Positions 3,494 through 46,691 of a DNA stretch of 64,000 nt are shown here, in pieces. The notes under the pieces are model-generated. The model saw nothing but the letters and a program-made list of their open reading frames with translations, searched no databases and had not been told where the DNA came from. Positions within the stretch are counted from its first letter, which is position 1; every line of letters starts with the position of its first letter. The position numbers and the translations under genes were made by a program. The stretch is from a virus: the IMG/VR virus record IMGVR_UViG_3300022074_000012, positions 30,872 through 94,871 of that record, one strand, 5' to 3'.

Positions 3494-3844
3494 ATGAGAA
3501 AGTTTGAATTTAGACCTTGGGGTTGGTACATCACTCTTGATGAAGGGATTAACTACAAGGTTAAGAAGATACATTTAAATCCAAACACAAAATTATCACT
3601 TCAATACCATCACCATCGTGATGAACATTGGACAGTGGTGGAAGGTTCTGGTAAAGCGATCGTAAATAAAAACGTTTTTATTATGAATGATGGTGATGAT
3701 ATGTTTATTGCAAAAAAAGCAGTGCATCGAATGGAAGCAAGTCCAGATGGTGTAACTTTTGTAGAAGTGCAGAGAGGGAAGTGTGATGAGGAAGATATTG
3801 TAAGACTACAAGATGATTATGGTAGAGTTGACAAACAAGCTTAA
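3494..3844 (+). CDS. Cupin protein, mannose-6-phosphate isomerase type II-like
   Basis: 116 aa, the size of the cupin domain found at the C-terminus of bifunctional mannose-1-phosphate guanylyltransferase/phosphomannose isomerase. It shows the RPWGWY opening, LSLQYHHHRDEHWTVVEGSGKA (metal-binding His cluster and Glu) and the later H of AVHRME. Such stand-alone cupins interconvert fructose-6-P and mannose-6-P or act on nucleotide sugars. Its place just before a GDP-mannose epimerase supports a GDP-mannose supply role. The next operon's promoter lies inside its 3' end. Confidence 0.8.
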   Translation: MRKFEFRPWGWYITLDEGINYKVKKIHLNPNTKLSLQYHHHRDEHWTVVEGSGKAIVNKNVFIMNDGDDMFIAKKAVHRMEASPDGVTFVEVQRGKCDEEDIVRLQDDYGRVDKQA

Positions 3845-3886: not shown

Positions 3887-4990
3887 ATGAGAGAGTACAA
3901 AAAAACCGCACTTGTTCTTGGTGCAGGTGGATTTATTGGCAGTCATATGGTAAAGAGACTGCGTAAAGAAGGATATTGGGTAAGAGGTGTAGACCTTAAA
4001 TACCCTGAGTTTTCTAAGACAGAAGCAAACGAATTTGTTTGTATGGATCTTAGAGATGTAGAAGTTGTCCGTAGAGTCATTCGTTTCGGAGGATATACTG
4101 GTAACTTTTATTCACAGATTGTAGATAAGTTCTTAGAACCATTTGATGAGATATATCAGTTTGCTGCTGATATGGGTGGTGCAGGATTTATATTTACAGG
4201 AGAAAATGATGCAGACATCATGCATAACTCTGCTTCAATTAATTTGAATCTGTTAGAAGAACAAAAGAAATGGAATAAAGATAAAAAAACAAATCATACA
4301 AAAATATTCTATAGTAGTTCTGCGTGTATGTACCCAGAACACAACCAACTAGACCCTAACAATCCAGATTGTCGTGAAGAATCCGCTTACCCTGCTAACC
4401 CTGACTCCGAATATGGATGGGAAAAACTCTTCTCGGAAAGATTATATCTCACTTATAATCGTAACTATGATATACCTGTTTGTGTTGCTCGTTACCATAA
4501 TATCTTCGGTCCAGAAGGAACATGGGATGGAGGCAGAGAAAAAGCTCCAGCAGCAATCTGTCGCAAAGTGGCTCAACTCTCGCCGCAAGGTGGAACCATC
4601 GAGGTGTGGGGAGATGGCTTACAAACTCGTTCCTTCCTGTTCATTGATGAATGCATCGAAGCAACTTGGAGACTAATGCAATCAGACTTTATGGGACCTG
4701 TGAATATAGGTTCTGAAGAGATGGTTACTATTAATCAGTTGGTTGAAACAGCAGCAAAAGTTGCAAACAAGAAAGTTGAAAAGCAACACATACTCGATGC
4801 ACCTCTTGGTGTTCGTGGACGTAACTCTAACAATGATCTTGTGAGAGAAAAACTTGGTTGGGATTATTCTCAATCATTAGAAGAAGGAATACGCAAAACA
4901 TATAATTGGATATGTTTGCAATTATATAGCACAACAGAAGAAAATGTGCTACAATCAGAAGAAGAACTTGAATTATTAGCCTCTGGATAA
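3887..4990 (+). CDS. GDP-mannose 3,5-epimerase-like NAD-dependent sugar epimerase
   Basis: 367 aa extended SDR enzyme. N-terminal Rossmann motif GAGGFIGS, the ADMGGAGFI segment, SSSACMYPE, the catalytic YGWEK (YxxxK), and GREKAPAAICRK ... WGDGLQTRSFLFIDEC ... RGRNSNND all follow plant GDP-D-mannose 3',5'-epimerase closely. By homology it converts GDP-mannose to GDP-L-galactose or GDP-L-gulose for surface glycans. First gene of the large operon, with the promoter at 3828. Confidence 0.85.
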   Translation: MREYKKTALVLGAGGFIGSHMVKRLRKEGYWVRGVDLKYPEFSKTEANEFVCMDLRDVEVVRRVIRFGGYTGNFYSQIVDKFLEPFDEIYQFAADMGGAGFIFTGENDADIMHNSASINLNLLEEQKKWNKDKKTNHTKIFYSSSACMYPEHNQLDPNNPDCREESAYPANPDSEYGWEKLFSERLYLTYNRNYDIPVCVARYHNIFGPEGTWDGGREKAPAAICRKVAQLSPQGGTIEVWGDGLQTRSFLFIDECIEATWRLMQSDFMGPVNIGSEEMVTINQLVETAAKVANKKVEKQHILDAPLGVRGRNSNNDLVREKLGWDYSQSLEEGIRKTYNWICLQLYSTTEENVLQSEEELELLASG

Positions 4991-5766: not shown

Positions 5767-6881
5767 AAATTGGATTAATTGGAGCAGGTAGATTAGGAAT
5801 CTGCCTTGCTTTGTTGATTGAAAAAGCAGGATATAATGTTCTTGCTTCTGATAATCGGGAAGATTACGTAAGAAATTTACAGAAAGGTATTATTGATACT
5901 GCTGAACCAGAAGTTCAACAGTATCTTTCTAATGCAAATAATATAGAGTTTACTACTGATAATATCAGAGTCATCGCAGAGTGTGATATTATATTTACTC
6001 TTGTTGCAACACCTTCTTTAGAAGATGGTAGTTATGATGTTAGTGCTGTATGGAAAGTTATAGATGATTTTAAAAATGTTCCTATATTATTAGATGAAAA
6101 ATCACTTATAGTTGGTTGCACTACAAATCCTGGTGATTGTAATGATTTTCAAAATGCACTTAAAAATACAGGTATAGATGTATTCTATAACCCAGAGTTT
6201 ATTGCACAAGGATCTATAATAACAGATTTGCAAAATTCTAATATGGTTATAATTGGTGGAAACGGTAATCATAAATCAGAGTTAGAACAGATATATGAAA
6301 AGATACAAATGGGTTTCATTAGTCCATCTGTTTATTTTATGAGCACTAAAGCAGCAGAGATAACAAAAATTGCTGTTAACTGTTATCTTACTACAAAGAT
6401 AAGTTATGCAAATATGCTAGGGCAAGTTCTTACACTATCTGGTATGGAAGATGAGATTGATAATGTATTAAAATCTATTGGTTCAGATAATCGAATAGGT
6501 AAAAAATATTTAAAATATGGTTTTGGGTTTGGTGGTCCTTGTTTTCCAAGAGACAATCGTGCATTCGCATCATATGCAAGTAAGGTCGGTATAGATCATA
6601 ATCTTGGTAGTATAACTGATGCCTTTAATGAAGATCATGCAGTGTTTTTAAAAGAACATTTTCTTTTTAAAAATAAAAAGAAAATACCTTTCTTTTTTAA
6701 TTATCTATCATACAAACCTAATACTGATATTCTTACAGAGAGTCAACAATATCGTCTATGTTTAGATCTTTTAAATGAAGGATATACAGTTTACTGTGCA
6801 GATTCATCAATTCAAAATCAATGTGACTCACGAATTCTTTTTGAAAAACCAGATGAAGAAGTTTTTGAAATTAAATTATGA
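5763..6881 (+). CDS. UDP-glucose/GDP-mannose dehydrogenase family protein
   Basis: 372 aa. N-terminal NAD-binding GLIGAGRLG, central helical region with TKAAEITKIAVNCYLTTKISYAN, and the catalytic-Cys motif GFGFGGPCFPRDNRAF. These enzymes oxidise UDP- or GDP-sugars twice to uronic acids. Slightly shorter than typical Ugd. The substrate cannot be read from sequence. A second family member is at 15647. Confidence 0.85.
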   Translation: MKIGLIGAGRLGICLALLIEKAGYNVLASDNREDYVRNLQKGIIDTAEPEVQQYLSNANNIEFTTDNIRVIAECDIIFTLVATPSLEDGSYDVSAVWKVIDDFKNVPILLDEKSLIVGCTTNPGDCNDFQNALKNTGIDVFYNPEFIAQGSIITDLQNSNMVIIGGNGNHKSELEQIYEKIQMGFISPSVYFMSTKAAEITKIAVNCYLTTKISYANMLGQVLTLSGMEDEIDNVLKSIGSDNRIGKKYLKYGFGFGGPCFPRDNRAFASYASKVGIDHNLGSITDAFNEDHAVFLKEHFLFKNKKKIPFFFNYLSYKPNTDILTESQQYRLCLDLLNEGYTVYCADSSIQNQCDSRILFEKPDEEVFEIKL

Positions 6882-7717
6882 TTGGATCTAATACTTTAGG
6901 AACTAACGGAAGATTAGGTAATCAAATGTTTCAGTACGCCTCTTTGAGAGGTATTGCCGATAAACATGGTTATGATTTTTGTATACCACCAGAGGATCAT
7001 CCTACCTATGCAGATTATGCTTTATTTTTAGCATTTAAAATGGAGGGTATTAAGACAGGATTAGTTAATGGTGACACAGTATCAGAATCTGGATATGAGT
7101 TTGATGAAAATCTTTTTAATACTTGTCCTGATAATGTAAACATTAATGGATACTATCAGACAGAAAAATATTTTAAACATGCAGAAAAAAATGTAAGAAA
7201 AGATTTTACATTTAAAGATGATATTCTATCAGCATGTAAAGAATATATGGATCAGTATGATGATATATCTTTTTTACATATTCGTAGAGGTGATAATGTA
7301 GGTCGTGAAGATTATTATCCTATGCCAACCCCAGAGTGGATGGGTGATATGGTTGAAAAACATTTTTCAAATAAACCAATATTAATTTGCACCGATGATT
7401 TAGATTGGGTTCAATCACAAGATGCTTTTAAAGATGATAAGTATATAATTTCAGAGACAAGATTATACTACGACACTCCTGTAATGATAGGTGGTGGTTC
7501 ATATGCAAAATCTCTTATACCCTACTATGATTTGTGTATGATGTCATTATGTAATGGTGCAATAATTGCCAACTCATCACTATCATGGTGGGGTGCATGG
7601 TTACAGGCATCACCAGATAAAAAAATTGTGGCTCAAGACCCTTGGTATGGTCCGCAACTTGCATCTAATAATACAAAAGATTTGTATCCCGAATCTTGGA
7701 TTGTGGAGAAGATATGA
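6878..7717 (+). CDS. GT11 alpha-1,2-fucosyltransferase-like protein
   Basis: 279 aa with the GT11 pattern: GRLGNQMFQYASLRG near the N-terminus, YYQTEKYF, the GDP-fucose-binding HIRRGD, and IANSSLSWWGAWLQ near the C-terminus. By family it transfers L-fucose (or a related GDP-sugar) to a glycan. Overlaps both neighbours by ATGA. Two further full paralogues follow at 8562 and 9461. Confidence 0.88.
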   Translation: MIGSNTLGTNGRLGNQMFQYASLRGIADKHGYDFCIPPEDHPTYADYALFLAFKMEGIKTGLVNGDTVSESGYEFDENLFNTCPDNVNINGYYQTEKYFKHAEKNVRKDFTFKDDILSACKEYMDQYDDISFLHIRRGDNVGREDYYPMPTPEWMGDMVEKHFSNKPILICTDDLDWVQSQDAFKDDKYIISETRLYYDTPVMIGGGSYAKSLIPYYDLCMMSLCNGAIIANSSLSWWGAWLQASPDKKIVAQDPWYGPQLASNNTKDLYPESWIVEKI

Positions 7718-8562
7718 GAGTTACGATATTAGGATCAGGTGGACAAATAGGATCATATCTTACACAATATCTTTCAAATAAAGGGCATATCGTAAGAGAG
7801 TTTGATGTTCTAAATGGTGAACATCAAGACATGACTCACATACCAAACACATATCTTCGTAATGCAATCATGGAAAGTGACTTTGTATTCTTTCTTGCCT
7901 TTGATGTTGGTGGATCTCATTACCTTAAAAAGTATCAACACACTTATAAATTTATTAATAATAATACTCGAATAATGGCAAATGTATTTGGTTACTTAGA
8001 GACTTATAAAGTGCCATTTGTATTCGCATCATCTCAAATGAGCAGTATGAGTTACTCTCCTTATGGGGTCATGAAGAGAGTTGGAGAACTATATACTAAG
8101 TCTTTGGATGGATCTATAGTAAAGTTTTGGAATGTCTTTGGAATTGAAAAGGACATGGAAAAGGCACATGTTATTACTGATTTTATTATAAAAGGATTTG
8201 AAACTGGTGTGATTAATATGATGACAGACGGAACAGAAGAAAGGGAGTTCTTATATGCTGAAGATTGTTGCGAAGCTTTGGAAACAATTATGGGTTGTTA
8301 CGATCAATTCACTTGTGATGACGAGCTTCATATCACTACTGGTATCTCTACAAGCATTTTGGAGATTGCACAAATTATACAAGTATTATTCAGAAATATC
8401 GGCAAGGAAGTCGAGGTTATTCCAGCATCGTCGAAAGATGAAGTACAAAAAGATGCTCGTAATATATCAGACCCATACATTGAAAGATGGTGGCAACCAA
8501 AAACTGACGTTGTAGATGGAATAAGTAACGTATTTAATGAAATCAAATTGAATTATTTGTAA
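7714..8562 (+). CDS. NAD-dependent epimerase/dehydratase-like protein
   Basis: 282 aa using the ATG at 7714 (ATGA overlap); an upstream in-frame codon at 7696 lies within the previous gene. Extended SDR: nucleotide motif GSGGQIG (a variant of GxxGxxG), FASSQMS, then YGVMK as YxxxK. The family interconverts nucleotide sugars; the exact substrate is unknown. It sits between two GT11 genes. Confidence 0.8.
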   Translation: MRVTILGSGGQIGSYLTQYLSNKGHIVREFDVLNGEHQDMTHIPNTYLRNAIMESDFVFFLAFDVGGSHYLKKYQHTYKFINNNTRIMANVFGYLETYKVPFVFASSQMSSMSYSPYGVMKRVGELYTKSLDGSIVKFWNVFGIEKDMEKAHVITDFIIKGFETGVINMMTDGTEEREFLYAEDCCEALETIMGCYDQFTCDDELHITTGISTSILEIAQIIQVLFRNIGKEVEVIPASSKDEVQKDARNISDPYIERWWQPKTDVVDGISNVFNEIKLNYL

Positions 8563-9464
8563 TGACTGTTTCTTTTAATGGATTAGGTAATGAGGGTAGA
8601 CTTGGAAACCAAATGTTCCAGTATGCTTTTATTCGTGGTATGTCTAAAAAACATGGATATGATTTTATGATTCCACATCAGAGTGCCGATAGATTTGATA
8701 ACTATGGTTTGTTTGAATGTTTTGAATTAGAAGGATGTAAATATACAGGTGAGGGTATTTTCAAAACATTAGAATGTAGAGATACTGCATTCAATCAAAA
8801 ATTTTTAGATGAGTGCACTAATAATACAAATTACTCTGGTGTATTTCAAACAGAAAAATATTTTACAAATGCAACAGAAGAATTAAGAAAAGATTATACT
8901 TTTCATAAAGATATTTTAAATCCTTGTCAAGAATTTATTGATTCAATTGGTGGTACTGATAAATGTATTTTTCTACATCTTCGTAGAGGTAATCCAAATG
9001 TAATAGGAAAGAGAGGGGAGAAATGGTCATATCAACTATTACAGGATTACCATCCATTATGTAAGAAAGAATATTATCTCAAAGCACTAGAAGAGTTTCC
9101 AGAAGATAAAAATGTTATAGTTTTATCTGATTTATTAGATTGGTGTAAAAAACAAGATTGGTTGCAAGATGATAGATTTTATATGTCAGATGCATCATAT
9201 GAGGTATTTGATGATGGTGCAAGTGTTCCTTATATTGATCTATGCTTGATGTCTTTGTGTAGTGGTGGTATAATAGCAAATAGTTCAATGAGCTGGTGGG
9301 GTGCTTGGTTGCAAAATGATCGAGGCAAAGTCGTTGCTCCTTATCCTTGGTATGGTGCAAAGGCATATAACTATGGTAATGCAGAACTTTGTGACGCAGA
9401 CATTATTCCAGAAAGATGGACTAAAATTTACAACGACCCAACACCGATTGATATTGTAGAATGA
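8562..9464 (+). CDS. GT11 alpha-1,2-fucosyltransferase-like protein
   Basis: 300 aa. Same signature as the 6878 protein: EGRLGNQMFQYAFIRG, VFQTEKYF, HLRRGN (with N in place of the usual final D of RRGD), IANSSMSWWGAWL. The start overlaps the previous stop by one base (TAATG). It has a ~25-residue insertion after HLRRGN compared with the neighbouring paralogues. Confidence 0.87.
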   Translation: MTVSFNGLGNEGRLGNQMFQYAFIRGMSKKHGYDFMIPHQSADRFDNYGLFECFELEGCKYTGEGIFKTLECRDTAFNQKFLDECTNNTNYSGVFQTEKYFTNATEELRKDYTFHKDILNPCQEFIDSIGGTDKCIFLHLRRGNPNVIGKRGEKWSYQLLQDYHPLCKKEYYLKALEEFPEDKNVIVLSDLLDWCKKQDWLQDDRFYMSDASYEVFDDGASVPYIDLCLMSLCSGGIIANSSMSWWGAWLQNDRGKVVAPYPWYGAKAYNYGNAELCDADIIPERWTKIYNDPTPIDIVE

Positions 9465-10270
9465 TTGGATTAAATTATCTTGGTAAAATGGGACAACTGG
9501 GAAATCAGATGTTTCAATATGCAGCACTTAGAGGTGTTGCGGATAGAAGAGGATTGGAATATACAGTTCCTAATCATAAAGAAGTTCTTGAAGATGGTTT
9601 AGGTAATAAACTTCGTATTGAATTGTATGATGCTTTTGATATAAACCCAAAGAATCAAGGTTTATTGCCGACTAATGAATATGTTCAAGAGGCACATTTT
9701 CATTTTGATAAAGATTTATATAATGAATGTCCAGATAATTGTTCAATAGTTGGATTCTTCCAGACAGAAAAATATTTCTTGAATATTCGTGAACAGATCA
9801 TAAAAGATTTTAAAGTTAAAAAAGAATATCGAGATGATTGTAAATCAATACTTAAACAGTTTGATAAACCAATTGCCTTACATATTCGTAGAGGTGACTT
9901 TCTAATCAATTCTTTGAATCATTATAACTTGTCAATGAAATATTATGAAAATGCTTTGGATTGTTTTGATGAAGATAGACAAGTAATTATATTTTCAGAT
10001 GATCCAAATTGGTGCTATAAGCAAAAACTATTTGCAAGTGATAGGTTTATTATAACCAAGTCTGATAGTCCTTATCATGACTTATATCTTATGACTCAGT
10101 GTGATGATTTTATAATTGCCAATTCGACTTTCTCATGGTGGGGTGCATGGCTTTGTCAGAACCCATATAAAGATGTAATATATCCACATAAGTGGTTTGG
10201 TCCTAATAATACAAGTAAATCTACTGTAGATTTATTTCCTAAAAGTTGGAGAATGATTGATGAAAACTGA
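9461..10270 (+). CDS. GT11 alpha-1,2-fucosyltransferase-like protein
   Basis: 269 aa, third GT11 member in the operon: GQLGNQMFQYAALRG, FFQTEKYF, HIRRGDF, IANSTFSWWGAWL. Overlaps upstream by 4 nt and downstream by 11 nt. The three copies differ throughout, so this is old paralogy or separate acquisition, not recent duplication. Confidence 0.88.
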   Translation: MIGLNYLGKMGQLGNQMFQYAALRGVADRRGLEYTVPNHKEVLEDGLGNKLRIELYDAFDINPKNQGLLPTNEYVQEAHFHFDKDLYNECPDNCSIVGFFQTEKYFLNIREQIIKDFKVKKEYRDDCKSILKQFDKPIALHIRRGDFLINSLNHYNLSMKYYENALDCFDEDRQVIIFSDDPNWCYKQKLFASDRFIITKSDSPYHDLYLMTQCDDFIIANSTFSWWGAWLCQNPYKDVIYPHKWFGPNNTSKSTVDLFPKSWRMIDEN

Positions 10271-14008: not shown

Positions 14009-14319
14009 GCATTTATGTTGTTGATTTAGATGGAACTCTTTGTTATACAGAACCTAATCCTGATGGTCATGGTATGAAATACTATGAAGCAACACCTTAT
14101 CCAGAAAGAATTGAAAAAATTAATAAATTGTGGGAAGAGGGACATACAATTATCATAGAGACAGCAAGAGGTTGTGGAAGTAAGATAAATCATTATGAAG
14201 ATACCTTTAATCAACTACGTTCTTGGGGATTAAAATTTAACTCTTTAAGAACTGGTGTTAAATTTGGTGGAGATTTCTTTATTGATGATAAAGGTATTAA
14301 TAGTGAGGATTTTTTTTAA
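14005..14319 (+). CDS. Small HAD-superfamily phosphatase
   Basis: 104 aa. Motif I VVDLDGTLC (nucleophile D), motif II IETARG, and the C-terminal FIDDKG acidic pair give a minimal HAD fold without cap. In glycan operons such phosphatases remove phosphate from sugar precursors. Overlaps both neighbours by 1-4 nt. Confidence 0.8.
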   Translation: MSIYVVDLDGTLCYTEPNPDGHGMKYYEATPYPERIEKINKLWEEGHTIIIETARGCGSKINHYEDTFNQLRSWGLKFNSLRTGVKFGGDFFIDDKGINSEDFF

Positions 14320-15650
14320 TGGGTTCAGTAAATAAAATTATTAAGAAGTCACCTAATTTTGTTAAGAGTGCTTTCTATAAGTATATTCCATTCAAATATA
14401 GGTATGGAAAAGTTTATGGTGAAACTCTTGATTTTTTATTAGAATCACAACATTGGAATGAAGAAAAATTAAAAGAATATCAACTACAAGAACTTCAAAG
14501 ATTATTAAAACATTGTTATACAAATGTTCCTTACTATCGAAACATTTTTATAAAGAATGGTTGGAGTCCTATGGATTTTAAATCAGTTGATGATTTAAAA
14601 GAATTTCCTGTTCTAACAAAAAGAAAAATTATAGATCATAATCAAATGCTTATTGCAGATGATATGAGAGATAAGAAATCGTTTCCAATCACAACGAGTG
14701 GTTCTACTGGTGATAAATTAAAATTCTATGTTGATGATGATTGTCTCAAAAAAGAAGCAGCTTTTAATATGAGAGCATACATTCAACAGGGAGCAAAGAT
14801 GTATGATACTCCGAGTGTATGGTTAAGAAGATATGTACCTAAAGATAGTGAATCACCTTTATGGTATTATGATAAAGAGTTGAAGAGATTATACATGTCT
14901 GCATATCATCTTAATGATAGGACTATAGGTGATTACGTTGCCAAAATAAATGAAGGTAACTATCAAACAATGTGTACATATCCCTCTGCTGCATATATCT
15001 TTGCTTGTCTGTGTGAAGAGAATAATTTATCTCTTACAAATATTAAAAAGATTCATACAACATCTGAAGTATTGTTAGAGAAGTGGTATAATAAAGTTCA
15101 AGAGGTTTTTGGCATTACACCTTGTGGACATTATGGACAAATGGAGAAAGTTTCTTTCATGAATCAGACAGAAGATTCACGGGACTTAAAACAAAATTTA
15201 GAATATGGAGTTGATCATTTCTATGATAATGAAGATGGCACATATGGATTGATTTCAACTGGTTTTATTAATTACTACATGCCATTTATTCGATACAAGA
15301 CAGAAGATACTTTTGTAATTAAAGATGGTAAAATTAAAGATGTGAATGGTAGAAGTAGTGACATACTTGTATCTAAAGATGGTTCAAGATTGCCTGGTGT
15401 AAACTTTTACAGTTGGATTGATAAGAAAATGCCATCAATAAAACTATTTCAAATTATTCAAAAGACACATGATGATATTATCTTTAACTATGTTCAAAAT
15501 CCTGATCATAATAATGATATCACAGAGGATATATTAGGTGGTTTATCATCACGTTTAGGTAACATGAATTATTCTGTGAATAAAGTTGACGATATAAAAA
15601 GAAATCTTAAAACACAAAAGTTTAAAAACATAATCAACGAGGTTGTATGA
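14319..15650 (+). CDS. CapK/PaaK-like adenylate-forming enzyme
   Basis: 443 aa, related to phenylacetate-CoA ligase and coenzyme F390 synthetase. LLKHCYTNVPYYRNIF near the N-terminus and the adenylate-forming motif TTSGSTGDKLKFYVD at about residues 125-140 are diagnostic. CapK-type members occur in capsule and LPS clusters, but their substrate is unknown. Overlaps the next gene (ATGA). Confidence 0.8.
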   Translation: MGSVNKIIKKSPNFVKSAFYKYIPFKYRYGKVYGETLDFLLESQHWNEEKLKEYQLQELQRLLKHCYTNVPYYRNIFIKNGWSPMDFKSVDDLKEFPVLTKRKIIDHNQMLIADDMRDKKSFPITTSGSTGDKLKFYVDDDCLKKEAAFNMRAYIQQGAKMYDTPSVWLRRYVPKDSESPLWYYDKELKRLYMSAYHLNDRTIGDYVAKINEGNYQTMCTYPSAAYIFACLCEENNLSLTNIKKIHTTSEVLLEKWYNKVQEVFGITPCGHYGQMEKVSFMNQTEDSRDLKQNLEYGVDHFYDNEDGTYGLISTGFINYYMPFIRYKTEDTFVIKDGKIKDVNGRSSDILVSKDGSRLPGVNFYSWIDKKMPSIKLFQIIQKTHDDIIFNYVQNPDHNNDITEDILGGLSSRLGNMNYSVNKVDDIKRNLKTQKFKNIINEVV

Positions 15651-16879
15651 AGATAAGTTTTATTGGACTTGGAAAATTAGGACTACCTCTTGTGTGTTGT
15701 TTAGCAAGGTCAGGCAATCAAATTTTAGGTGTAGATAAGAATGAATATATTCTTGAGAAACTAAACAATAATGAATTACCTTTCTATGAGCCAGGTCTTA
15801 CTGATATATTCCCACATAATAATTTGATAGGTTTTACTGACTCATATAGTAGAGCAGTCGAAGAAGCAGAAACATCTATCATATTAGTTAATACTCAACT
15901 TGGTGATAGTGGTTACTCATCAGAGTTTGTAGAGAGTGCGTTGATTGATTTATCAGTTAATCTAAAGAAAAGTAAGAAAGATTATCATCTTATTATAATA
16001 TCATCAACTGTCTTGCCAGGATCAATTAGTAATCTTATACACTTAGTAGAAAAAATATCAGGACGTAAGTATGGTAAAGGTTTTGGTTTTGCATATGTTC
16101 CAGATTTTGTTAGGCTTGGAAATGTAATTTATGATTTTAAAAATCCAGAATTCTTTTTAATTGGTGCAAATAATCAAAGAGATATTAGTATGGTGCAAGA
16201 AATATGGAAAGACTTTCATGATAACGAACCACCACTCAAGATACTCACATTAGAAGAAGCAGAAGTAGCTAAAGTATCTTTGAATGCTTTTGTTGTAAAC
16301 AAGATTGCATTCGTAAACTTTTTAGGACAACTATGTGATGGTATGGATAATGTGAACGTACATAATATTACTGATGCCATAGGATTAGATAAAAGAATAT
16401 CACCATACTTTTTTAAGTTTGGAACACCTTATGGTGGCACATGTTTTCCAAGAGATTCTGCTGCATTTATTAGGTTTGCATCGAACCGAAAAAGAGATGC
16501 AAAGAATTTAAAATTTGCTGATGAAGTAAATGCAGATTTGTATCAAAGCATACTCGATAAATGTGTTGTATATGATAAGGTTGGTATCATAGGAATATCA
16601 TTCAAACCAAACTCACCTGTTGTTATAGGTTCTCCATCTTCAAAGTTGATACAGGATTTAATTGAAAAGAATATTACTGTATTTGCATATGATGAGTTTG
16701 ATGAATCATTCAGTAATCTTAACGGACTTGAAGACAAAATAATTAAATGTAAAACACCTCAAGAATGTGTAGACAAATCTGATGCAATTGCTATAATGCA
16801 TCCAGATAATAAATTTTCTTCACTGAATACAAGTGATAAATTTGTAATTGATAATTGGGGAGTATTAGATGGGAATTAA
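15647..16879 (+). CDS. UDP-glucose/GDP-mannose dehydrogenase family protein
   Basis: 410 aa, second member of the family in this operon. FIGLGKLGLPLVCCLA (NAD site), EAEVAKVSLNAFVVNKIAFVN, and the catalytic-Cys motif GTPYGGTCFPRDSAAF. More complete in the third domain (GISFKPNSPVV...) than the 5763 protein, and only distantly similar to it, so the two probably act on different sugars. Confidence 0.86.
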   Translation: MKISFIGLGKLGLPLVCCLARSGNQILGVDKNEYILEKLNNNELPFYEPGLTDIFPHNNLIGFTDSYSRAVEEAETSIILVNTQLGDSGYSSEFVESALIDLSVNLKKSKKDYHLIIISSTVLPGSISNLIHLVEKISGRKYGKGFGFAYVPDFVRLGNVIYDFKNPEFFLIGANNQRDISMVQEIWKDFHDNEPPLKILTLEEAEVAKVSLNAFVVNKIAFVNFLGQLCDGMDNVNVHNITDAIGLDKRISPYFFKFGTPYGGTCFPRDSAAFIRFASNRKRDAKNLKFADEVNADLYQSILDKCVVYDKVGIIGISFKPNSPVVIGSPSSKLIQDLIEKNITVFAYDEFDESFSNLNGLEDKIIKCKTPQECVDKSDAIAIMHPDNKFSSLNTSDKFVIDNWGVLDGN

Positions 16880-17906
16880 ATTTAGACAAAGTATAAACAA
16901 TCTACAGACCTATAATGTTGGTGGACGTTCTGATCTATCATCTGATTGGGAATGTTTTGATTGGAATGAATCAGAGTTTCCTCCTACAAATAAAGTATTT
17001 GAAGTAATGAAATCTTTCTATCGTTATGAAAGATATCCTGACATCACTGCAAAATTATTAAAGAGTAAATTATCTGAATATGTTTCTCTACCAGTTGATT
17101 TTATTGAGATATATAATGGTTCTGATGATGCACTGAAAGATATCATAACTGTGTTTGTAGATAAAGAAACTCATGTTCTATCTTATCAACCATCATATAC
17201 ACAAGTGAATACTTTCATCACAACAAATACAGAGAATTACATGAAAGTAAATATCAAAAATCCACTAGGTGAGCATGAATATGATTTTGATTATTGTAAA
17301 GTTGCGAATGTAGTTTATCTTGTTAATCCAAACAATCCAACAGGAAAATTATTAGAAGTAGATGAGATAGAAAAATTATTAAAAACTTATCCAGATACTT
17401 TGTTTATTGTTGACGAAGCATACTATGAATTTGCAAAACAATCTTGTAGTCATCTAGTTATATCACATAAAAATTTAATCGTTACCAGAACATTTTCTAA
17501 AGCATTTGGATTAGCATCTGTGCGATTGGGTTATTGTATGGGACATCCTGATACACTATCACACTTGAGAAAGATAAGAAATGGTAAGGCAGTAAACTCA
17601 CTTGCACAACTATGTGGAGTAGCAGCTTTAGATGACTTAGATTATCTTGATTCACGTATTGATGAAATGAATGATGCTAAGAAGTTTTTTGTTGACAATC
17701 TTCCTCACGGATACTATGCAGTTGATAGTCAAACTAACTTTGTTCTTTTAAAAACACCTGACTCTAAAGAACTTTTAAATAAAATGAAAAATAATAAAAT
17801 CCTCATAAGAGATAGAAGTTCCTTTGACAATCTTGAAAATTGTGTTAGAATAACCATAGGGTCGAAGAAACAAATCATAAGAGTTTTGGATGTAATTAAT
17901 GCATAG
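16869..17906 (+). CDS. PLP-dependent aminotransferase, HisC-like
   Basis: 345 aa fold-type I aminotransferase. NGSDDALKDII, VNPNNPTG, VDEAYYEF and the PLP-lysine motif RTFSKAFGLASVRLGY match histidinol-phosphate aminotransferase relatives. In this context it may make an amino-sugar, amino-alcohol or phospho-amino substituent rather than histidine. Overlaps the upstream gene by 11 nt and the downstream gene by 8 nt. Confidence 0.82.
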   Translation: MGIKFRQSINNLQTYNVGGRSDLSSDWECFDWNESEFPPTNKVFEVMKSFYRYERYPDITAKLLKSKLSEYVSLPVDFIEIYNGSDDALKDIITVFVDKETHVLSYQPSYTQVNTFITTNTENYMKVNIKNPLGEHEYDFDYCKVANVVYLVNPNNPTGKLLEVDEIEKLLKTYPDTLFIVDEAYYEFAKQSCSHLVISHKNLIVTRTFSKAFGLASVRLGYCMGHPDTLSHLRKIRNGKAVNSLAQLCGVAALDDLDYLDSRIDEMNDAKKFFVDNLPHGYYAVDSQTNFVLLKTPDSKELLNKMKNNKILIRDRSSFDNLENCVRITIGSKKQIIRVLDVINA

Positions 17907-18717: not shown

Positions 18718-19310
18718 GAATTGAATTAGAACGTTGGCAAGCTGCTCAAACAGAAGAGTTTAGTCATCATCAGGATCTTAGAATAGAAGCATACATTACT
18801 GCGACTAATGTTATTGCAAAATATTTTGGTATAGATTATAAAAAAGATTTCAAAGATAAAGTAATTGTTCAAGTTGGTGCAGGACCAAGAGGATCTATTC
18901 TCAGTACAGAGGGTAATTTTAAAAGAGGTTTGATAGTCGAACCACTTATAGATCGTTGGCCATCTAATATTAGAGAAGATTATGAGAAGGTAGGTATTGA
19001 AATTATCGCAGCACCTTATGAAGACTTAGATATAGATGAGAAGGTAGATGAAACATGGTTCTTTAATGTAGTTCAACATGTATTTGATCCAAAGGAACAA
19101 TTAGAACTTGCAAAGAAAACATCTAAAGTTGTTCGTGTATTTGAACCTATTGGAACTGGAACTGATACTGCACATCCACATTACATTACTGAAGAAACAT
19201 TCACTGATGTATTAGGTAACTTCGGACAAATCTTTAAGGGTGGAACTGAAGATGGTTTCTTTAGTTGTGATTGTTATTATGGGACTTGGTATGAATCTGA
19301 TAACGTTTAG
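18714..19310 (+). CDS. Class I SAM-dependent methyltransferase-like protein
   Basis: 198 aa. KVIVQVGAGPRGSIL is a class I SAM-binding motif I (GxGxxG), followed by an acidic strand end (IVEPL) and FFNVVQHVFDP. Probably modifies a glycan or lipid precursor. Overlaps the previous gene by 4 nt. Confidence 0.72.
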   Translation: MRIELERWQAAQTEEFSHHQDLRIEAYITATNVIAKYFGIDYKKDFKDKVIVQVGAGPRGSILSTEGNFKRGLIVEPLIDRWPSNIREDYEKVGIEIIAAPYEDLDIDEKVDETWFFNVVQHVFDPKEQLELAKKTSKVVRVFEPIGTGTDTAHPHYITEETFTDVLGNFGQIFKGGTEDGFFSCDCYYGTWYESDNV

Positions 19311-20106
19311 TTTATTTGGAGATAATCCACTTTATTGTCAAGGTGCAGTAGAGAATGCAAACACTGCAAGAGTCATCTACCCTGAGTGGACTGCAAGATT
19401 TTATGTCGCTCAAGATGTACCAGAACATTATATTGAAGAGATAGAAGATTATGGTGCAGAAGTTGTAAGATGTGAAAAGAAAAATTCTTATGATGGACTG
19501 AACTGGAGATTCAGACCTCTTCATGACCCTGACGTAGAATATTGGATAAGTCGTGATGCAGATAGTCGATTAAGTTGGAGAGAAAGAAATGCAGTAGATG
19601 AGTGGATGGAGTCAGATAAAGCAGCACATCTACTTCGTGATTGTCATAATCATGGTTATACAATCATGGCAGGTATGTTTGGTATTAATAATAAATTATT
19701 TCATAAAAGATATGGAATGATTAACTTAGACAATATTAATGCAAATTACAGAGAGGCAGATCAAACTGTCTTAGAACAACATCTTTGGCCACTAATTAAA
19801 GATGATCATGTTTGTCATGATCATTGGAGGAACTCTGAGATTGTCGGTGAACCAACTTACCAATTAGGAGATCATGTTCATTACAACAAAGCATATGGTG
19901 TTGGATTAAAATATTATTTAAAAGAACATGTATATAAAGTTTTGAGTAACATATATCCAGAGGGTCAAGATAGTCGTCCGTTCCCTGATCATTTACCTAT
20001 GGAACATGGTATATTTGTTGGACAGGTTATAGAAGTTGATGGTAAACCTAGAATGAATATGGATGTTCGTTGGGAATATGAACTAAGAGGTTTATCTTAT
20101 GAGTAG
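19291..20106 (+). CDS. Probable GT-A glycosyltransferase
   Basis: 271 aa from the ATG at 19291 (MNLITFSLFGDNPLYCQGA); in-frame ATGs at 19240-19279 lie inside the upstream gene. EYWISRDADSRLSWRER contains a DxD-like metal site. Related proteins of this type are common in marine phage glycan clusters. Overlaps upstream by 20 nt and downstream by 8 nt. Enzymatic role inferred. Confidence 0.65.
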   Translation: MNLITFSLFGDNPLYCQGAVENANTARVIYPEWTARFYVAQDVPEHYIEEIEDYGAEVVRCEKKNSYDGLNWRFRPLHDPDVEYWISRDADSRLSWRERNAVDEWMESDKAAHLLRDCHNHGYTIMAGMFGINNKLFHKRYGMINLDNINANYREADQTVLEQHLWPLIKDDHVCHDHWRNSEIVGEPTYQLGDHVHYNKAYGVGLKYYLKEHVYKVLSNIYPEGQDSRPFPDHLPMEHGIFVGQVIEVDGKPRMNMDVRWEYELRGLSYE

Positions 20107-21472
20107 TTTCCATATTATTGGAACAGGTGCTTGTGGTTTTCTGAGAGCATATCAAACTCTTAAGAATCATATACCATTAAAGTATAAAGGAGGTAGAGGT
20201 AAATATCAAAACAGTTTTCAAAACTGGAATGATAATGGATTGATATGGAATATTGAATCATTATCAAAAGAAGAAAGAGTAAGAAGAGTTAGTCAACATA
20301 ATACTACAACTAATATCACTCATTCATATTTAAAATATGTTCCAGAGTTTGTAGGATTAGATCCTAACTTAAAATTTTTATGTTTGAAGGGAGATAAACA
20401 TCATTCTATTTTTAACTTAGCAGTTTCTTGGGGTTATCGTAATCCTTGTTTTGTGAAAGAAAGGAGAATAGGTGCAGGTTTTAATCGTTATACTGTAGAT
20501 GAGTTTCCAAATCATAGTGATTGTGATAATGAGTTTGATGCAACAGAAAAATATTGGGAAGAGTATTATCAGATTGCAGATATCATGCAAGACAATTATC
20601 CGTTTAACTTTTTTATAGTTGATGCAATAAAATTTTTTAGTGATATAGAATATAGAACTGATGTACTATCAAAGGTAGATGTTAATATTGGAGATGAACC
20701 ACTTCTTCCTGTTAATATCAATAACTTGAGTATAAGCACTACATTACATGGTGGCATAGGTAATAACTTACTTCAGATGGGAGAGGTAATATCATTTTGT
20801 AAAAAACATAATCTTACTGAACCATTCTTTGGAACTTGGGATCTATGGGATGGTGGTGGTAAGTATCCTCCACCATATAATGCAGATAGATTTCTTGGAG
20901 GACATGAGGGTGATCATAATACAATTAGAAAAACATTTCCAAATTTAAATTGGAAGGGAGATCTGTCCGCTGACTACGACACTACATTTATTATAAATGA
21001 TATGTTTAGATTCAGTGATTGTGATGAACTTGATTATGTAAGAAAGAAATTATCTATTACAGATAAGACAATGCCAAACACTGTTTCCTTGCATTTGAGA
21101 TATTGTACTCAACCTGTTGATGATCATGTCAATGGATATGTTGATGATACATTTTACATTGAATGCTTTAAACACATACCAGAAGAAGTACATGTCTATA
21201 TCTTTTCTGATGATATTTCAAAATCAAGAGGTAAATTACATTGGTTCCAAAAAAATTTCCCCCAAAAATTTTCATGTGTAGAGTCGGACTCTTTTCAATC
21301 TCTTCAAATGATGGTAGAATGTGAGTATCACATACTTCATGTATCTACGTTTAGTTTTTGGTCTGCATTTCTAGACATAAATCAACCGAATAGTAAAGTA
21401 TTTTATCCTAAGTCCTTTACAGATACACATAGTTCGTTTATGATACCTTATAAAGAATGGCAAATGATTTAA
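20099..21472 (+). CDS. Two-domain protein: sulfotransferase-like N-terminus and GT11-like C-terminus
   Basis: 457 aa. Residues ~1-200 begin FHIIGTGACGFLRAYQTL, like the PAPS-binding loop of sulfotransferases, and include FLCLKGDKHHSIFNLAVSW, like their 3'-phosphate-binding segment. Residues ~210-457 follow a degenerate GT11 pattern: LHGGIGNNLLQMGEVISF, VSLHLRY (no RRGD), FSDD, HVSTFSFWSAFLD. This looks like a fusion of a sulfuryl-transfer domain and a fucosyltransferase-like domain. The C-terminal domain may have altered specificity because the HxRRGD motif is lost. Confidence 0.65.
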   Translation: MSSFHIIGTGACGFLRAYQTLKNHIPLKYKGGRGKYQNSFQNWNDNGLIWNIESLSKEERVRRVSQHNTTTNITHSYLKYVPEFVGLDPNLKFLCLKGDKHHSIFNLAVSWGYRNPCFVKERRIGAGFNRYTVDEFPNHSDCDNEFDATEKYWEEYYQIADIMQDNYPFNFFIVDAIKFFSDIEYRTDVLSKVDVNIGDEPLLPVNINNLSISTTLHGGIGNNLLQMGEVISFCKKHNLTEPFFGTWDLWDGGGKYPPPYNADRFLGGHEGDHNTIRKTFPNLNWKGDLSADYDTTFIINDMFRFSDCDELDYVRKKLSITDKTMPNTVSLHLRYCTQPVDDHVNGYVDDTFYIECFKHIPEEVHVYIFSDDISKSRGKLHWFQKNFPQKFSCVESDSFQSLQMMVECEYHILHVSTFSFWSAFLDINQPNSKVFYPKSFTDTHSSFMIPYKEWQMI

Positions 21473-22263
21473 TGGATAAGAATAAATCTGCATTTAAATT
21501 AAAAAATATAGGACCGATATATTATATTAATCTGGATGGTCAACCAGAGAGAAAGGAATATATGGAGGGTCTCTTTAAGTATTGGGAGATCGAAAACTAT
21601 GAGAGAGTGTCAGGATATGATGGTCGTGATGATGATCTAAGTGATATATTAAAAGGTAGATACCCAGAACAGATGACATCAGGTGAAGTTGGTTGTACTA
21701 CATCTCATCTGAAAGCAATCAAGCATTGGTATGAAACATCTGATACACCTTACGCTGTAATTATGGAAGATGACATCGACTTAGATGTTGTCAGGTGTTG
21801 GAATTTTACTTGGAGTAATTTTATAGCAAAGATGCCATACGATTGGGATGTGATTCAACTTGCTATCATATGCACTGGTGGACTTCATGTGACATTACAT
21901 AAAAGATTTGTGAATGATTTTTCAACTGCTTGTTATATTATTAATCGTCATCATGCAGAGAAACTAATAAAATTACATTGTAGAGGAGATAAGTATAAAC
22001 TTGATAATGGTGTGAAACCAAGAGCAGTGGCAGATGATTTAATATACAACTCAGGAAATACCTATGCAGTTCCGATATTTTTATACCGAGTTCAATTAGG
22101 ATCATCCATACACCCAGAGCATGTAGATGCAATACACAAGGCAAGTTATAATGCATTAACCAACTGGTGGACACAATCAGGTATAGATGTAGACATTGAT
22201 AAGTTAATGAATTACGACCCATACCTTGGTCGTGTGACAGAACCTGTACAGAATCAGCAATAA
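21472..22263 (+). CDS. GT25 family LPS glycosyltransferase
   Basis: 263 aa from the ATG at 21472 (TAATG junction); an in-frame ATG at 21457 is inside the previous gene. IYYINLDGQPERKEYM, SGEVGCTTSHLKAIKHW and VIMEDDIDL are the GT25 signature, usually beta-1,4-galactosyltransferases of LPS. Last gene of the polysaccharide operon. Confidence 0.85.
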   Translation: MDKNKSAFKLKNIGPIYYINLDGQPERKEYMEGLFKYWEIENYERVSGYDGRDDDLSDILKGRYPEQMTSGEVGCTTSHLKAIKHWYETSDTPYAVIMEDDIDLDVVRCWNFTWSNFIAKMPYDWDVIQLAIICTGGLHVTLHKRFVNDFSTACYIINRHHAEKLIKLHCRGDKYKLDNGVKPRAVADDLIYNSGNTYAVPIFLYRVQLGSSIHPEHVDAIHKASYNALTNWWTQSGIDVDIDKLMNYDPYLGRVTEPVQNQQ

Positions 22264-34321: not shown

Positions 34322-36931
34322 ATGGCAACACCATTCAGGCTGAAAAGGTCTGCGATTGCAAGTAAGCGTCCAGCGACGACTGATCTTCAATTAGGAGAAT
34401 TAGCACTCAATACTTATGACGGATATCTTTACACTGAGAGAGAAGGTGTAGGGTTAGCAACCGTTACAAATCTTACACCTTGGTATGAGAACTATGGTGG
34501 TGGGTCAATATATTATAGTAATTCAGTCGGTATTGGAACAACAGTTCCTCAGTATAACTTAGATGTACGCAAGGGTTCCATAGGTGGATATGATACTCTT
34601 GTAGCACAGCACTCAGATGTAATCAAAGAAATTGCGGTAACAGTCGCAAGTAAGACAGACGATCATAGATATCAAGGACAGGGAAGTGGTAATGGATATG
34701 TACTCGATGGTATTCAATCTCCTGTACTTACATTAACACCAGGTAGAACATATAAATTTAATCTAAGTTCAAGTGACATGTCTAGTCACCCATTTAGATT
34801 CTATCTTGATGAAGCAAAATCAGTTCAATATACAACTAACGTTACCACAACATCTACTTCTGCACAGATAACGATAACAGATGATACTCCAAATATTCTG
34901 CATTATCAGTGCTCATCACACGGGTATATGGGTAATGCCCTTATTATTAATTCAAATGTAATAAACACACCTTATGCTGCAATCATTCGTAATGGATTAG
35001 ATGTTTTAAGTGGTAATGTTGATATTTCATCAAATTTAGATGTTGATGGTAATACTACATTAGATATTACAACCATTGATGGTTTACTTGATATCAATGC
35101 AGGTGGTCAGGCAAATACATTCAAGGTAGAAGATTTAACAGCAGGTCGTGTTGTGATTGCTGGCACTGGTGGTGAATTAGAAGATAGTGGAAACTTATTA
35201 TTCAACGGAACTGATTTATCAGCAGCATCACTTATTGTATCTGATTTAACATCAGGTCGTGTTGTAATCGCTGGTGGTTCAGGTGCAGTTGAAGATAATG
35301 CAAATTTAAAATTCAATACAACTACATCAGAGTTTGAAGTTGTAGGTCATACAATATTAGATTCACTTAATGTATCTGGTATTTCAACTTTCACTGGTGA
35401 TATAGATGCAGATGCCTTTGTTATTGCAGGTTCTACTGGCACTGGTGGTATTAAAGTCGGTACTAGTTTACAGATTTTTGATGCCTCACATACTGCAATA
35501 AGACAACAAAACAGTGGATCAATATTTATTGATGCCGATAATATTGAGTTAAGAAATCGTAGTGCTGGTGGTTTTCGTGCATATGCTAAGTTTGGTAGTT
35601 GGGCTAGTGGAGCAGCAGGACTTTTCCACGATGATGGTTCAAACTCTAATGAAAGACTAAGAACCACTAGCACGGGTGTTTCAATTACAGGAAATGTATC
35701 TGCAGTTGATGGAGCATTTAGTGGAAATCTTACTGTAACTGGTAATGTTGGAATTGCTGGAACATTAACATACGAAGATGTAGATAGAATTGATGCAGTT
35801 GGTCTTAGTACATTTAGAGAAGGATTATTCATACCTGATAATCAGAAAGCTCAATTTGGAAATGCAGCAGGAAGTGCAGATTTAAACATATACCATAGTG
35901 GCAACAATGCTTTTCTTATTAATACTACTGGTTTTACCTCTTTAAAATCTTCAAACGGTATTTTATATCTTAGTGGAAATAGCACTCATATAAGATCAGG
36001 AGATGATGGAGAAACTCAGGCTGTATTTAATGATAATGGATCAGTAGATTTATATTTTAATAATGTAAAGAAATTTGAGACATCTCTCAAAGGCATCAAA
36101 GTTGGAACGGGTGTCACGATTGAAACAAATGGACAGGCAACATTCGCTGGCATTGTAACCGCAACAAAATTTATTGGTGACGGAAGTGATTTAACAGGTA
36201 TTGATGCATCTGCCTTGAAATTTGGTGGATCAGTCAAAGCACAAGCAAATGGTTTTGGTGTCGTTGTTACTGGTGTCACAACATCAAGTGGTGGTTTCTC
36301 TGGTAACTTATCTGGAACTGCGACTCTTGCAACTGATCTTGCAATCAATGGAACTAATCAGTTATTATATCAAGCATCAAATAATGACTCAGCAATCTTA
36401 CCAACTGGTAATTCAGGTCAAATACTACAATCAAATGGTGCAGGTTCTGCTCCACAATGGGTAACTTCTGCTCCTGCTGGTGCAATTGAAGGTATCACAA
36501 TTCGTGAGGAAAGTTCAGTTATTGGTTCAGCAAATAGTATTTCAACAATCAACTTTATTGGGGAATCAGTTACTGCTGATGCTGCTGTTGCCGCTGGTAT
36601 TGCCACTGTTACGATTAATGCTCTTTCAGGAATACTTGTTAAAGATGGTGGTGCAAATGTAGGAACAGGTATCACTGCATTTGATTTTGCAGGTTCACTC
36701 GTTGATGTTGACGCAGTATCAAACACTGGTATTGCTACAGTCCAGATTGATGGTTTATCAGTCAAAGATGAAGGTTCATCAGTCGGAACTGCAGGTAGCA
36801 TTACCACATTAAACTTTGTTGGTGCTGGTATCGTTGTTGATGCAGCTGCAAATGCAGGTGTTGCAACAATTACATCTGCTGGTGGTGTTACGAATGCTGA
36901 TGTTGTTGCTCTGGCGATTGCTTTGGGATGA
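34322..36931 (+). CDS. Large tail-fibre-like protein with cupredoxin-like domain
   Basis: 869 aa. The N-terminal MATPFRLKRSAIASKRPATTDLQLGELALNTYDG is a fibre-type attachment module. Residues ~105-205 look like a cupredoxin: TLTPGRTYKFNLSSSDMSSHPFRF and HYQCSSHGYMGN would give His, Cys, His and Met ligands. The rest is repeated beta modules (LTAGRVVIAGTGG, SGRVVIAGGSG, GTLTYEDVDRIDAVG, ATKFIGDGSDLTGID, GAGIVVDAAANAGVATIT). Probably a long trimeric fibre; first gene of the main array. Confidence 0.75.
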   Translation: MATPFRLKRSAIASKRPATTDLQLGELALNTYDGYLYTEREGVGLATVTNLTPWYENYGGGSIYYSNSVGIGTTVPQYNLDVRKGSIGGYDTLVAQHSDVIKEIAVTVASKTDDHRYQGQGSGNGYVLDGIQSPVLTLTPGRTYKFNLSSSDMSSHPFRFYLDEAKSVQYTTNVTTTSTSAQITITDDTPNILHYQCSSHGYMGNALIINSNVINTPYAAIIRNGLDVLSGNVDISSNLDVDGNTTLDITTIDGLLDINAGGQANTFKVEDLTAGRVVIAGTGGELEDSGNLLFNGTDLSAASLIVSDLTSGRVVIAGGSGAVEDNANLKFNTTTSEFEVVGHTILDSLNVSGISTFTGDIDADAFVIAGSTGTGGIKVGTSLQIFDASHTAIRQQNSGSIFIDADNIELRNRSAGGFRAYAKFGSWASGAAGLFHDDGSNSNERLRTTSTGVSITGNVSAVDGAFSGNLTVTGNVGIAGTLTYEDVDRIDAVGLSTFREGLFIPDNQKAQFGNAAGSADLNIYHSGNNAFLINTTGFTSLKSSNGILYLSGNSTHIRSGDDGETQAVFNDNGSVDLYFNNVKKFETSLKGIKVGTGVTIETNGQATFAGIVTATKFIGDGSDLTGIDASALKFGGSVKAQANGFGVVVTGVTTSSGGFSGNLSGTATLATDLAINGTNQLLYQASNNDSAILPTGNSGQILQSNGAGSAPQWVTSAPAGAIEGITIREESSVIGSANSISTINFIGESVTADAAVAAGIATVTINALSGILVKDGGANVGTGITAFDFAGSLVDVDAVSNTGIATVQIDGLSVKDEGSSVGTAGSITTLNFVGAGIVVDAAANAGVATITSAGGVTNADVVALAIALG

Positions 36932-36932
36932 T

Positions 36933-36940
36933 TATAAATA
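36933..36940 (+). promoter_or_regulatory. T4-type late promoter
   Basis: Exact TATAAATA, 38 nt before the ATG at 36979. Confidence 0.7.
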
Positions 36941-36978
36941 TCTCAACGGGGATATTGCACCTTTTTAAACTATAAAAA

Positions 36979-37308
36979 ATGGCTAATACTTTTAAATTAA
37001 AATCGAAAAATAATATTGGTGTATCCACAGTTGGAATATACACAGTACCTGGTGCGACAACCACAGTTATCATTGGTGTGACTTGTACGAATGTATCTGG
37101 TCAAGGAATTAATGTTGGAATTGGAATATCAAGAGCAACAAATGGAGATGATATAAACATATTAAAGAACGTTCCTATCCCACAAGGATCTGCATTGGAA
37201 ATTATGCAAGGAAATAAGATAGTTGTAGAAGCAGTTGATACAGTCACAGCATTGAGTGATGTTAATAATAGTTTAGATGTTGCCTTGACAATAATGGAAA
37301 TAACATAA
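36979..37308 (+). CDS. Small beta-rich probable virion protein
   Basis: 109 aa, strand-rich with Val/Thr/Ile/Gly (FKLKSKNNIGVSTVGIYTVPGATTTVIIGVT...). The next gene starts 1 nt after its stop. Resembles small fibre-accessory or decoration proteins by composition and place; no family named. Confidence 0.65.
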   Translation: MANTFKLKSKNNIGVSTVGIYTVPGATTTVIIGVTCTNVSGQGINVGIGISRATNGDDINILKNVPIPQGSALEIMQGNKIVVEAVDTVTALSDVNNSLDVALTIMEIT

Positions 37309-37309
37309 T

Positions 37310-38746: not shown

Positions 38747-38749
38747 ATA
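38742..38749 (+). promoter_or_regulatory. T4-type late promoter
   Basis: GATAAATAACTAAAA overlapping the previous stop, 16 nt before the ATG at 38766. Confidence 0.65.
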
Positions 38750-38765
38750 ACTAAAAAGCATAATC

Positions 38766-39668: not shown

Positions 39669-39985
39669 TGGCAAAAAAAATTCTAGTTAAAAGTGGTGTA
39701 GTTCAAGATGTTTCAGATGCAGTATTTCCAGTGCATCCAGATGCAGGAACTTGGAAAGATTGTTCAAACGATAATGTTAAAAAGGATTGGACGGTTAATG
39801 CAGACAACTCTGTTAGTGAACCTGTAAATCCAGAAGAAACTTATGCTGAAAAAAGAGTGAGGGAATATCCTCAACTTGGTGATGTTATTGATGCTTTATT
39901 TAAAAAAGAGGCAGGTAACAGTTCTGAATGGGATGCTTTAGTTACTTCAAGAGCAAATACTAAAACTAAGTATCCTAAATCCTAG
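39668..39985 (+). CDS. Tail-fibre assembly/chaperone-like small protein
   Basis: 105 aa. The end EKRVREYPQLGDVIDALFKKE...TKTKYPKS matches the short phage tail-associated proteins with a (R)eYPplxDqlDalwk ... YP pattern. Translationally coupled to the preceding fibre gene. Role in fibre folding or attachment is inferred. Confidence 0.6.
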   Translation: MAKKILVKSGVVQDVSDAVFPVHPDAGTWKDCSNDNVKKDWTVNADNSVSEPVNPEETYAEKRVREYPQLGDVIDALFKKEAGNSSEWDALVTSRANTKTKYPKS

Positions 39986-40032
39986 TTGATGCAACTGGAT
40001 ACTTTTTATTATAATAATTTTGTTTTTATATT

Positions 40033-40578: not shown

Positions 40579-40592
40579 CTAAAAATAATATA

Positions 40593-41357: not shown

Positions 41358-41358
41358 T

Positions 41359-42648: not shown

Positions 42649-42654
42649 TAAATA
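42647..42654 (+). promoter_or_regulatory. T4-type late promoter candidate
   Basis: AATAAATAAAG around the preceding stop, only 6 nt before the ATG at 42660; the transcript would begin inside the coding region unless a later start is used, so the match may be fortuitous. Confidence 0.3.
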
Positions 42655-42659
42655 AAGAT

Positions 42660-44285: not shown

Positions 44286-44293
44286 GTAAAAAA

Positions 44294-44719: not shown

Positions 44720-44727
44720 CTAAATAA
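44720..44727 (+). promoter_or_regulatory. T4-type late promoter candidate
   Basis: CTAAATAAAAAAAA, 15 nt before the ATG at 44743. Confidence 0.45.
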
Positions 44728-44742
44728 AAAAAAAGATTTAAA

Positions 44743-45381: not shown

Positions 45382-45386
45382 TTAAA

Positions 45387-46028: not shown

Positions 46029-46033
46029 CTAAA

Positions 46034-46686: not shown

Positions 46687-46691
46687 ATTAA

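Follow-up and report, generated by a model that had tools for sequence, protein, structure and literature searches.

A single gene of a T4-like cyanophage joins a domain with a predicted sulfotransferase fold to a GT11-like, fucosyltransferase-type domain. What is directly established is the fusion itself, its conservation, the predicted folds of the two domains and the fact that each half is under purifying selection (Table 1). The account that we favour, while giving it slightly less than an even chance, is that T4-like cyanophages use this two-domain protein as an enzyme for building glycans. Specifically, the C-terminal GT-B domain would take an L-sugar (L-fucose or L-galactose) from a GDP donor and transfer it with inversion, as in the fucosyltransferase superfamily, by use of the single retained arginine of the HxR motif (Arg334) together with the GGxGN and STF motifs. 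The N-terminal domain would act on the same glycan, most likely by adding sulfate from PAPS through a rebuilt phosphosulfate loop. That both domains act on one glycan is fairly probable; the complete proposition, namely that one phage protein both adds L-fucose or L-galactose and sulfates the added sugar by means of a novel phosphosulfate loop, giving cyanophages a bifunctional enzyme for sulfated glycans, is rather unlikely when taken as a whole.

Table 1. Positions of the fusion gene's domains and motifs, and of cluster genes that bear on its function, in window coordinates.
Feature	Position	Strand	Basis or remark
Mannose-6-phosphate isomerase cupin, same cluster (its start)	3494..3844	+	PF01050, E 2e-28
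GDP-mannose-3,5-epimerase homologue	3887..4990	+	phmmer E 8e-84 to 2c59; possible source of GDP-L-galactose
Upstream neighbour, family not recognised	19264..20106	+	8-base overlap with the fusion start; neighbour conserved in relatives
N-terminal domain, residues 1-205, predicted sulfotransferase fold	20099..20713	+	AF2 model, Foldseek/VIA
Loop after strand 1, [IV]-I-G-[ST]-G-[AG]-C-G-F-L-R, residues 6-16	20114..20146	+	Column counts, 23 proteins
Strand-helix FLC[LF][RK]G.....SL..SW, residues 92-110	20372..20428	+	Place of the 3-prime phosphate-binding element
Variable linker, residues about 181-210	20639..20728	+	2 of 36 columns invariant; homologue lengths differ by up to 7 aa
C-terminal GT11-like domain, residues 206-457, GT-B fucosyltransferase fold	20714..21469	+	PF01531, predicted model
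GG[LI]GNN, residues 218-223	20750..20767	+	Equivalent of POFUT1 Gly42-Asn43
Motif I variant H-L-R-[FY]-C-T, residues 332-337	21092..21109	+	Replaces HxRRGD; paired with HIRRGD by hhalign
STFSFWSAFL, residues 416-425	21344..21373	+	Equivalent of POFUT1 Ser355-Thr356-Phe357
Downstream GT25 gene	21457..22263	+	PF01755, E 3e-13; 16-base overlap with the fusion stop; conserved neighbour in relatives

The gene occupies positions 20099-21472 on the plus strand of the window (the 64,000-nucleotide stretch analysed here, positions 30,872 to 94,871 of IMG/VR record IMGVR_UViG_3300022074_000012). It is a single open reading frame with an ATG start and no internal stops, and it encodes 457 amino acids. 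Every motif quoted in the sequence-only reading was located in this protein: IIGTGACGF at residues 6-14, FLCLKGDKHHSIFNL at 93-107, GGIGNNLLQMGEVISF at 218-233, HLRYCT at 332-337, FSDD at 369-372 and STFSFWSAFL at 416-425. A scan of IMG/VR for other proteins of this architecture, a check that the same reading had proposed, found the complete two-part gene in 26 other cyanophage contigs from many metagenomes, with one further copy cut by the end of its contig. The recurrence of the fusion in 26 other contigs rules out an assembly or annotation artefact, and in none of the fusion contigs are the halves split. The family comprises 23 distinct proteins (that of the window plus 22 more) of about 451-470 residues, with 61-74% identity to the window protein.

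Pairwise dN/dS is 0.11 for the N-terminal half and 0.09 for the C-terminal half (56 pairs), indicating that both halves are held by strong purifying selection. The segment joining them, with so few invariant columns and a varying length, behaves as expected of an interdomain linker. A one-domain enzyme running across the junction is not what the relatives show: the junction is poorly conserved and variable in length, and relatives of the C-terminal domain alone exist. The two-domain reading also stood at the level of structure, the N-terminal model being sulfotransferase-like and the C-terminal model, which starts at about residue 205, resembling FUT8, POFUT1 and NodZ. A free-standing N-terminal domain was not found in viral contigs, 84,980 prokaryote genomes (a pattern-limited search), phages, plasmids or eleven related phage and viral records, the reach of the pattern searches being that of close relatives.

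The source virus record is 94,871 bases long. The psbA- and psbD-like genes at 30379 and 31703 and the phoH gene at 57646 identify the window as part of a T4-like cyanophage. The overlaps at both ends of the fusion gene place it inside a tightly packed sugar-gene cluster that extends from about 3.5 to 22.3 kb, and the relatives share the gene order GT11, GT2-like, another glycosyltransferase, GT2, methyltransferase-like, unknown, fusion and GT25. Three more GT11 genes, all with HxRRG motifs, are clustered at 6878-10270, two of them adjacent; together with the fusion, they bring the number of GT11-like domains in the cluster to four.

A PaaK-like adenylate-forming enzyme, a second nucleotide-sugar dehydrogenase and a HisC-like aminotransferase are encoded among glycosyltransferases at 14319-17906, and all three are missing at the matching place in relatives L001 and L008. 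The same two relatives carry a second gene fusion of this cluster, in which a relative of the window gene at 13244 and a GT2-like gene form one 534-aa open reading frame joining two glycosyltransferases (L001, 1362-2966). A gene for a GT15/KRE2-type mannosyltransferase (PF01793, E 7e-34; L006, 6374-7174) is found between the fusion and the GT25 gene in relatives and is absent from the corresponding place in the window. Mannosyltransferases of this type are best known from fungi. Farther downstream in the window, at 34322-53608, a long series of genes shares a repeated segment, TGIVTAT..GDGSQLTG..., and these genes look like side-by-side variants of a tail fibre or adhesin.

The Pfam GT11 family (PF01531) matches the fusion protein only in its C-terminal part, with an E value of about 2e-7 (1.5e-7 to 2.2e-7) and a score of 30.9 bits, above the cut-off of 23.9. 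All 12 homologues tested match PF01531 at E values up to 1, the best at 7e-10. Alignment by hhalign of the C-terminal domain with a set of canonical GT11 proteins, including the three others of the window, gave a probability of 99.4% over 114 columns. The full-length AlphaFold model has a pLDDT of 71, with parts at low confidence; from about residue 205 to the end, it resembles FUT8 (Z 10.1), POFUT1 (Z 9.4) and NodZ (Z 9.0), and FUT8 and POFUT1 are likewise the best Foldseek matches. The fusion thus shares with GT11 α-1,2-fucosyltransferases a Pfam match above cut-off, the motif order GGxGN, HxR, FSDD and STFSFW, and the GT-B fold, but it differs from them by HLR[FY]C in place of HxRRGD, by a conserved DDHVNGYVDD after motif I and by the 205-aa N-terminal domain. 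With POFUT1 (GT65) and with FUT8 and NodZ (GT23), it shares the fold from about residue 205, and searches of PDB sequences detected no sequence similarity to any of them. POFUT1 has EGF repeats as its acceptor.

The departure from HxRRGD is real, since the three other GT11 genes of the window have HIRRGD, HLRRGN and HIRRGD at this position. HLR[FY]C is present in all 23 fusion proteins, with H332, R334 and C336 invariant and a single Thr-to-Asn change after the cysteine; the first arginine of the motif is kept, and the second arginine and the Gly-Asp pair are lost. The nearest relative that consists of the C-terminal domain only, outside the fusion family, also has one arginine at this place (L053, NLRIID). 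Elsewhere in the putative donor site, G218, G219, G221 and N222 are invariant, with one N223I substitution, and STFSFW is identical in 23 of 23 proteins. On the motif I sequence the protein is not a canonical GT11; by the rule of membership, its motifs resemble those of a single-arginine GDP-sugar transferase joined to a sulfotransferase-fold partner.

The sequence-only reading had taken HxRRGD to be required for GDP-fucose binding, and had suggested that the GT11 domain has become a lectin or has changed its donor. Loss of HxRRGD need not mean that GDP-fucose is no longer bound, because the arginine retained here is the key residue in both POFUT1 and FUT8. In POFUT1, the single Arg240 binds the β-phosphate and is essential, while the D242A mutant has near wild-type activity and the D244A mutant slightly reduced activity (PMC3180450); R365 of FUT8 has the same role as POFUT1 Arg240 (PMC7014118). 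The remainder of the POFUT1 GDP-fucose site consists of Gly42/Asn43, His238, Ser355/Thr356 and Phe357 (PMC3180450). A POFUT1-like set is present and invariant in the fusion family, as H332/R334, G221/N222 and S416/T417/F418, the correspondence being one of motif and fold. Because these invariant HxR, GGxGN and STF residues are those that hold GDP-fucose in POFUT1, which likewise depends on one arginine, the C-terminal domain is probably an active GDP-sugar transferase and not a lectin, and we consider its glycosyltransferase activity likely. A lectin or an inactive glycosyltransferase would account for the family-wide replacement of the second arginine and Gly-Asp by [FY]-C-T. We regard it as unlikely given the invariance of the three motifs, the role of a single arginine as key residue in POFUT1 and FUT8, and the dN/dS of this half. 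Plant GT106 rhamnosyltransferases were considered as a second precedent for HLRF and dropped, as PMC7343896 gives no motif.

The suggestion of a changed donor fared better, and GDP-L-galactose is a plausible candidate on the evidence of a linked gene. The product of the epimerase gene at 3887-4990 is by far closest to plant GDP-mannose-3,5-epimerase, the next family matching only at an E value of 1e-21, and in all 16 contigs tested the fusion is accompanied by a GDP-mannose-3,5-epimerase gene. This linkage makes GDP-L-galactose, the product of such an epimerase, a plausible donor, and several fucosyltransferases accept it (PMC8787198). A scan of epimerases encoded in the window, which belongs to an incomplete record, gave no match to GDP-mannose dehydratase or GDP-fucose synthase above the cut-off; the host may supply GDP-fucose. 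GDP-mannose-3,5-epimerase also occurs in 37 cyanophage and marine virus records and is not peculiar to phages with the fusion; in cyanophage S-SCSM1, it is named alongside GDP-fucose synthesis genes (PMC9602691). Several of these epimerase relatives are annotated as UDP-glucose 4-epimerase, a name that looks wrong. Because the record is incomplete, the host may provide GDP-fucose and the epimerase extends beyond the fusion phages, the donor is one that we infer; transfer of an L-sugar from a GDP donor is reasonably probable.

The N-terminal domain (residues 1-205) has no sequence-family match in Pfam, PHROG, NCBIfam or the PDB, and PDB sequence searches with either half returned nothing meaningful. 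Its AF2 model, built with only 23 similar sequences and with parts at low confidence, has a pLDDT of 77 and a pTM of 0.76. A Foldseek search of the PDB with this model placed sulfotransferases in all of the top 22 positions, at E values of only about 1e-3. In the VIA search of the PDB, the top 32 rows are all sulfotransferases, led by human TPST1/2 (Z 10.9; rmsd of 3.4 over 170 residues for TPST), and among viral models sulfotransferases are among the best named matches. The model therefore supports a sulfotransferase fold, a call that we rate as good, and the N-terminal part was not modelled with a fold unrelated to sulfotransferases, the outcome that would have spoken against the sequence-only reading.

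Two other views of the fold were weighed. Comparison by hhalign of the N-terminal profile with phage sulfotransferases, in which the profile is shallow (Neff 1.7), gave the expected register at a probability of 0.3% and a p value of 0.21, which is not significant. The N-terminal domain might be unrelated to sulfotransferases, its matches reflecting a common Rossmann-like α/β arrangement; this view draws on the missing profile support, on the low diversity of a single-family alignment and on the weak Foldseek E values. It is the least probable alternative in our estimation, as the leading matches in both programs and both libraries belong to a single family, span residues 1-205 and outscore unrelated folds by about 3 Z units. 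Alternatively, the domain could use a sulfotransferase/P-loop kinase-like fold to transfer some other group, such as a phosphoryl group, to the same glycan. Nucleoside-monophosphate kinases do rank next below sulfotransferases, the best non-sulfotransferase match being adenylate kinase (Z 7.7), and the loop is glycine-rich yet unlike that of PAPS enzymes. However, sulfotransferases are clearly above kinases in both aligners and the Walker A motif GxxxxGK[ST] is absent from the sequence. We consider such a transfer improbable, and the kinase reading itself was rejected for want of Walker A.

The sequence-only reading had described the N-terminal motifs as the PAPS-binding loops of sulfotransferases. 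The fold bears this out; the 5-prime loop does not, as it is not a known PAPS motif. Residues 6-16 lie where sulfotransferases have their 5-prime phosphosulfate loop, and the stretch reads G[ST]G[AG]CGFLR in 23 of 23 proteins. The K/R-x-G-T-T of known PAPS enzymes (Lys/Arg with Thr/Ser) is absent, the usual Lys/Arg and Thr-Thr, which handle the phosphosulfate, being replaced by Ala/Gly and Phe-Leu throughout. Canonical phage sulfotransferases have GLPR[AS]GxT in this loop, and in NDST1 the lysine of the phosphosulfate loop is the proposed catalytic acid (PMC3733922). On this loop sequence, the fusion is not a proven PAPS sulfotransferase. The strand-helix at residues 92-110 has the register of FVVLLRDVQEVVASY in a canonical phage sulfotransferase (L085) and resembles the 3-prime phosphate element. 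The family consensus of this putative 3-prime phosphate stretch is FLCLRGRREHSIKSLATSW, with Arg or Lys at position 97 in 23 of 23 proteins and Ser106 in 22 of 23, at a spacing one residue longer than the canonical one. Here the window protein, with K97, D99, H101, F105 and N106, is the least typical member of the family.

Nine polar residues of the N-terminal domain are invariant (R16, K30, K35, R62, R63, H75, R122, N129 and R130), a set that makes the binding of an anionic ligand very probable. Whether it also transfers sulfate bears on the earlier proposal that one protein glycosylates and sulfates a surface sugar. The proposal is supported in part: two domains are present, and the atypical 5-prime loop leaves sulfation as plausible only; sulfate transfer is possible but somewhat doubtful. 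A competing explanation, to which we give about one chance in three, is that the N-terminal domain keeps the sulfotransferase fold but has ceased to transfer sulfate, and serves to bind or place the acceptor, which may be an anionic or pre-sulfated glycan, for an active C-terminal glycosyltransferase. This would fit the loss of the phosphosulfate-loop Lys/Arg and Thr in every family member, the lack of a profile link to phage sulfotransferases, the fusion to a glycosyltransferase in every case within the data searched and a conservation too strong for a decaying domain. On the other hand, the near-invariant G.G.CGFLR loop and the many invariant polar residues exceed the usual needs of a scaffold. 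No second sulfotransferase was found by PF13469 in the same 94,871-base record, which is a fragment.

Comparison with known sulfotransferases shows the same combination of a shared fold and a divergent loop. The predicted N-terminal fold resembles TPST1/2, the olefin-synthase sulfotransferase 4gox and 3rnl (Z 8.1-10.9), but the domain is without their R-S-G-T-T or K-x-G-T-T loop and is only 6-15% identical to them. Stand-alone sulfotransferases of cyanophages (S-SKS1, S-SRM01 and L085) come from viruses of the same host group, and one of them lies next to glycan genes; that of S-SRM01 is canonical and beside a glycosyltransferase. In contrast to the N-terminal domain, they are unfused and have the canonical LPR[AS]G-T loop and R...[DE]...S motif, with profile similarity to the domain undetectable. 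The L085 gene (1483-2289, PF13469) is located among tail-fibre-like genes on the contig of fusion relative L008. A 1092-aa Hokovirus protein (BFVD A0A1V0SGR8), annotated as GT25, has a model that matches a sulfotransferase-like fold and may also combine a glycosyltransferase with such a fold; it differs from the cyanophage fusion in being GT25, not GT11, and in belonging to a giant virus of eukaryotes.

Sulfotransferases and fucosyltransferases are known separately in cyanophages (PMC9602691), and within a limited set of open-access papers we found no earlier record or paper on a fusion of a GT11-like domain with a sulfotransferase fold. The fusion brings known folds, with variant motifs, into a new combination and is not a new kind of system. 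Its C-terminal domain suggests that the single-arginine donor site of POFUT1 also exists among phage GT11-like enzymes. The N-terminal domain represents a family that has the sulfotransferase fold but lacks the standard catalytic loop, and it could reveal a new way of handling PAPS or a route from enzyme to binding domain. If the two halves cooperate, the protein would give a marine cyanobacterial virus a compact route to a charged, fucoidan-like glycan, with consequences for phage attachment, the exclusion of other phages and grazing.
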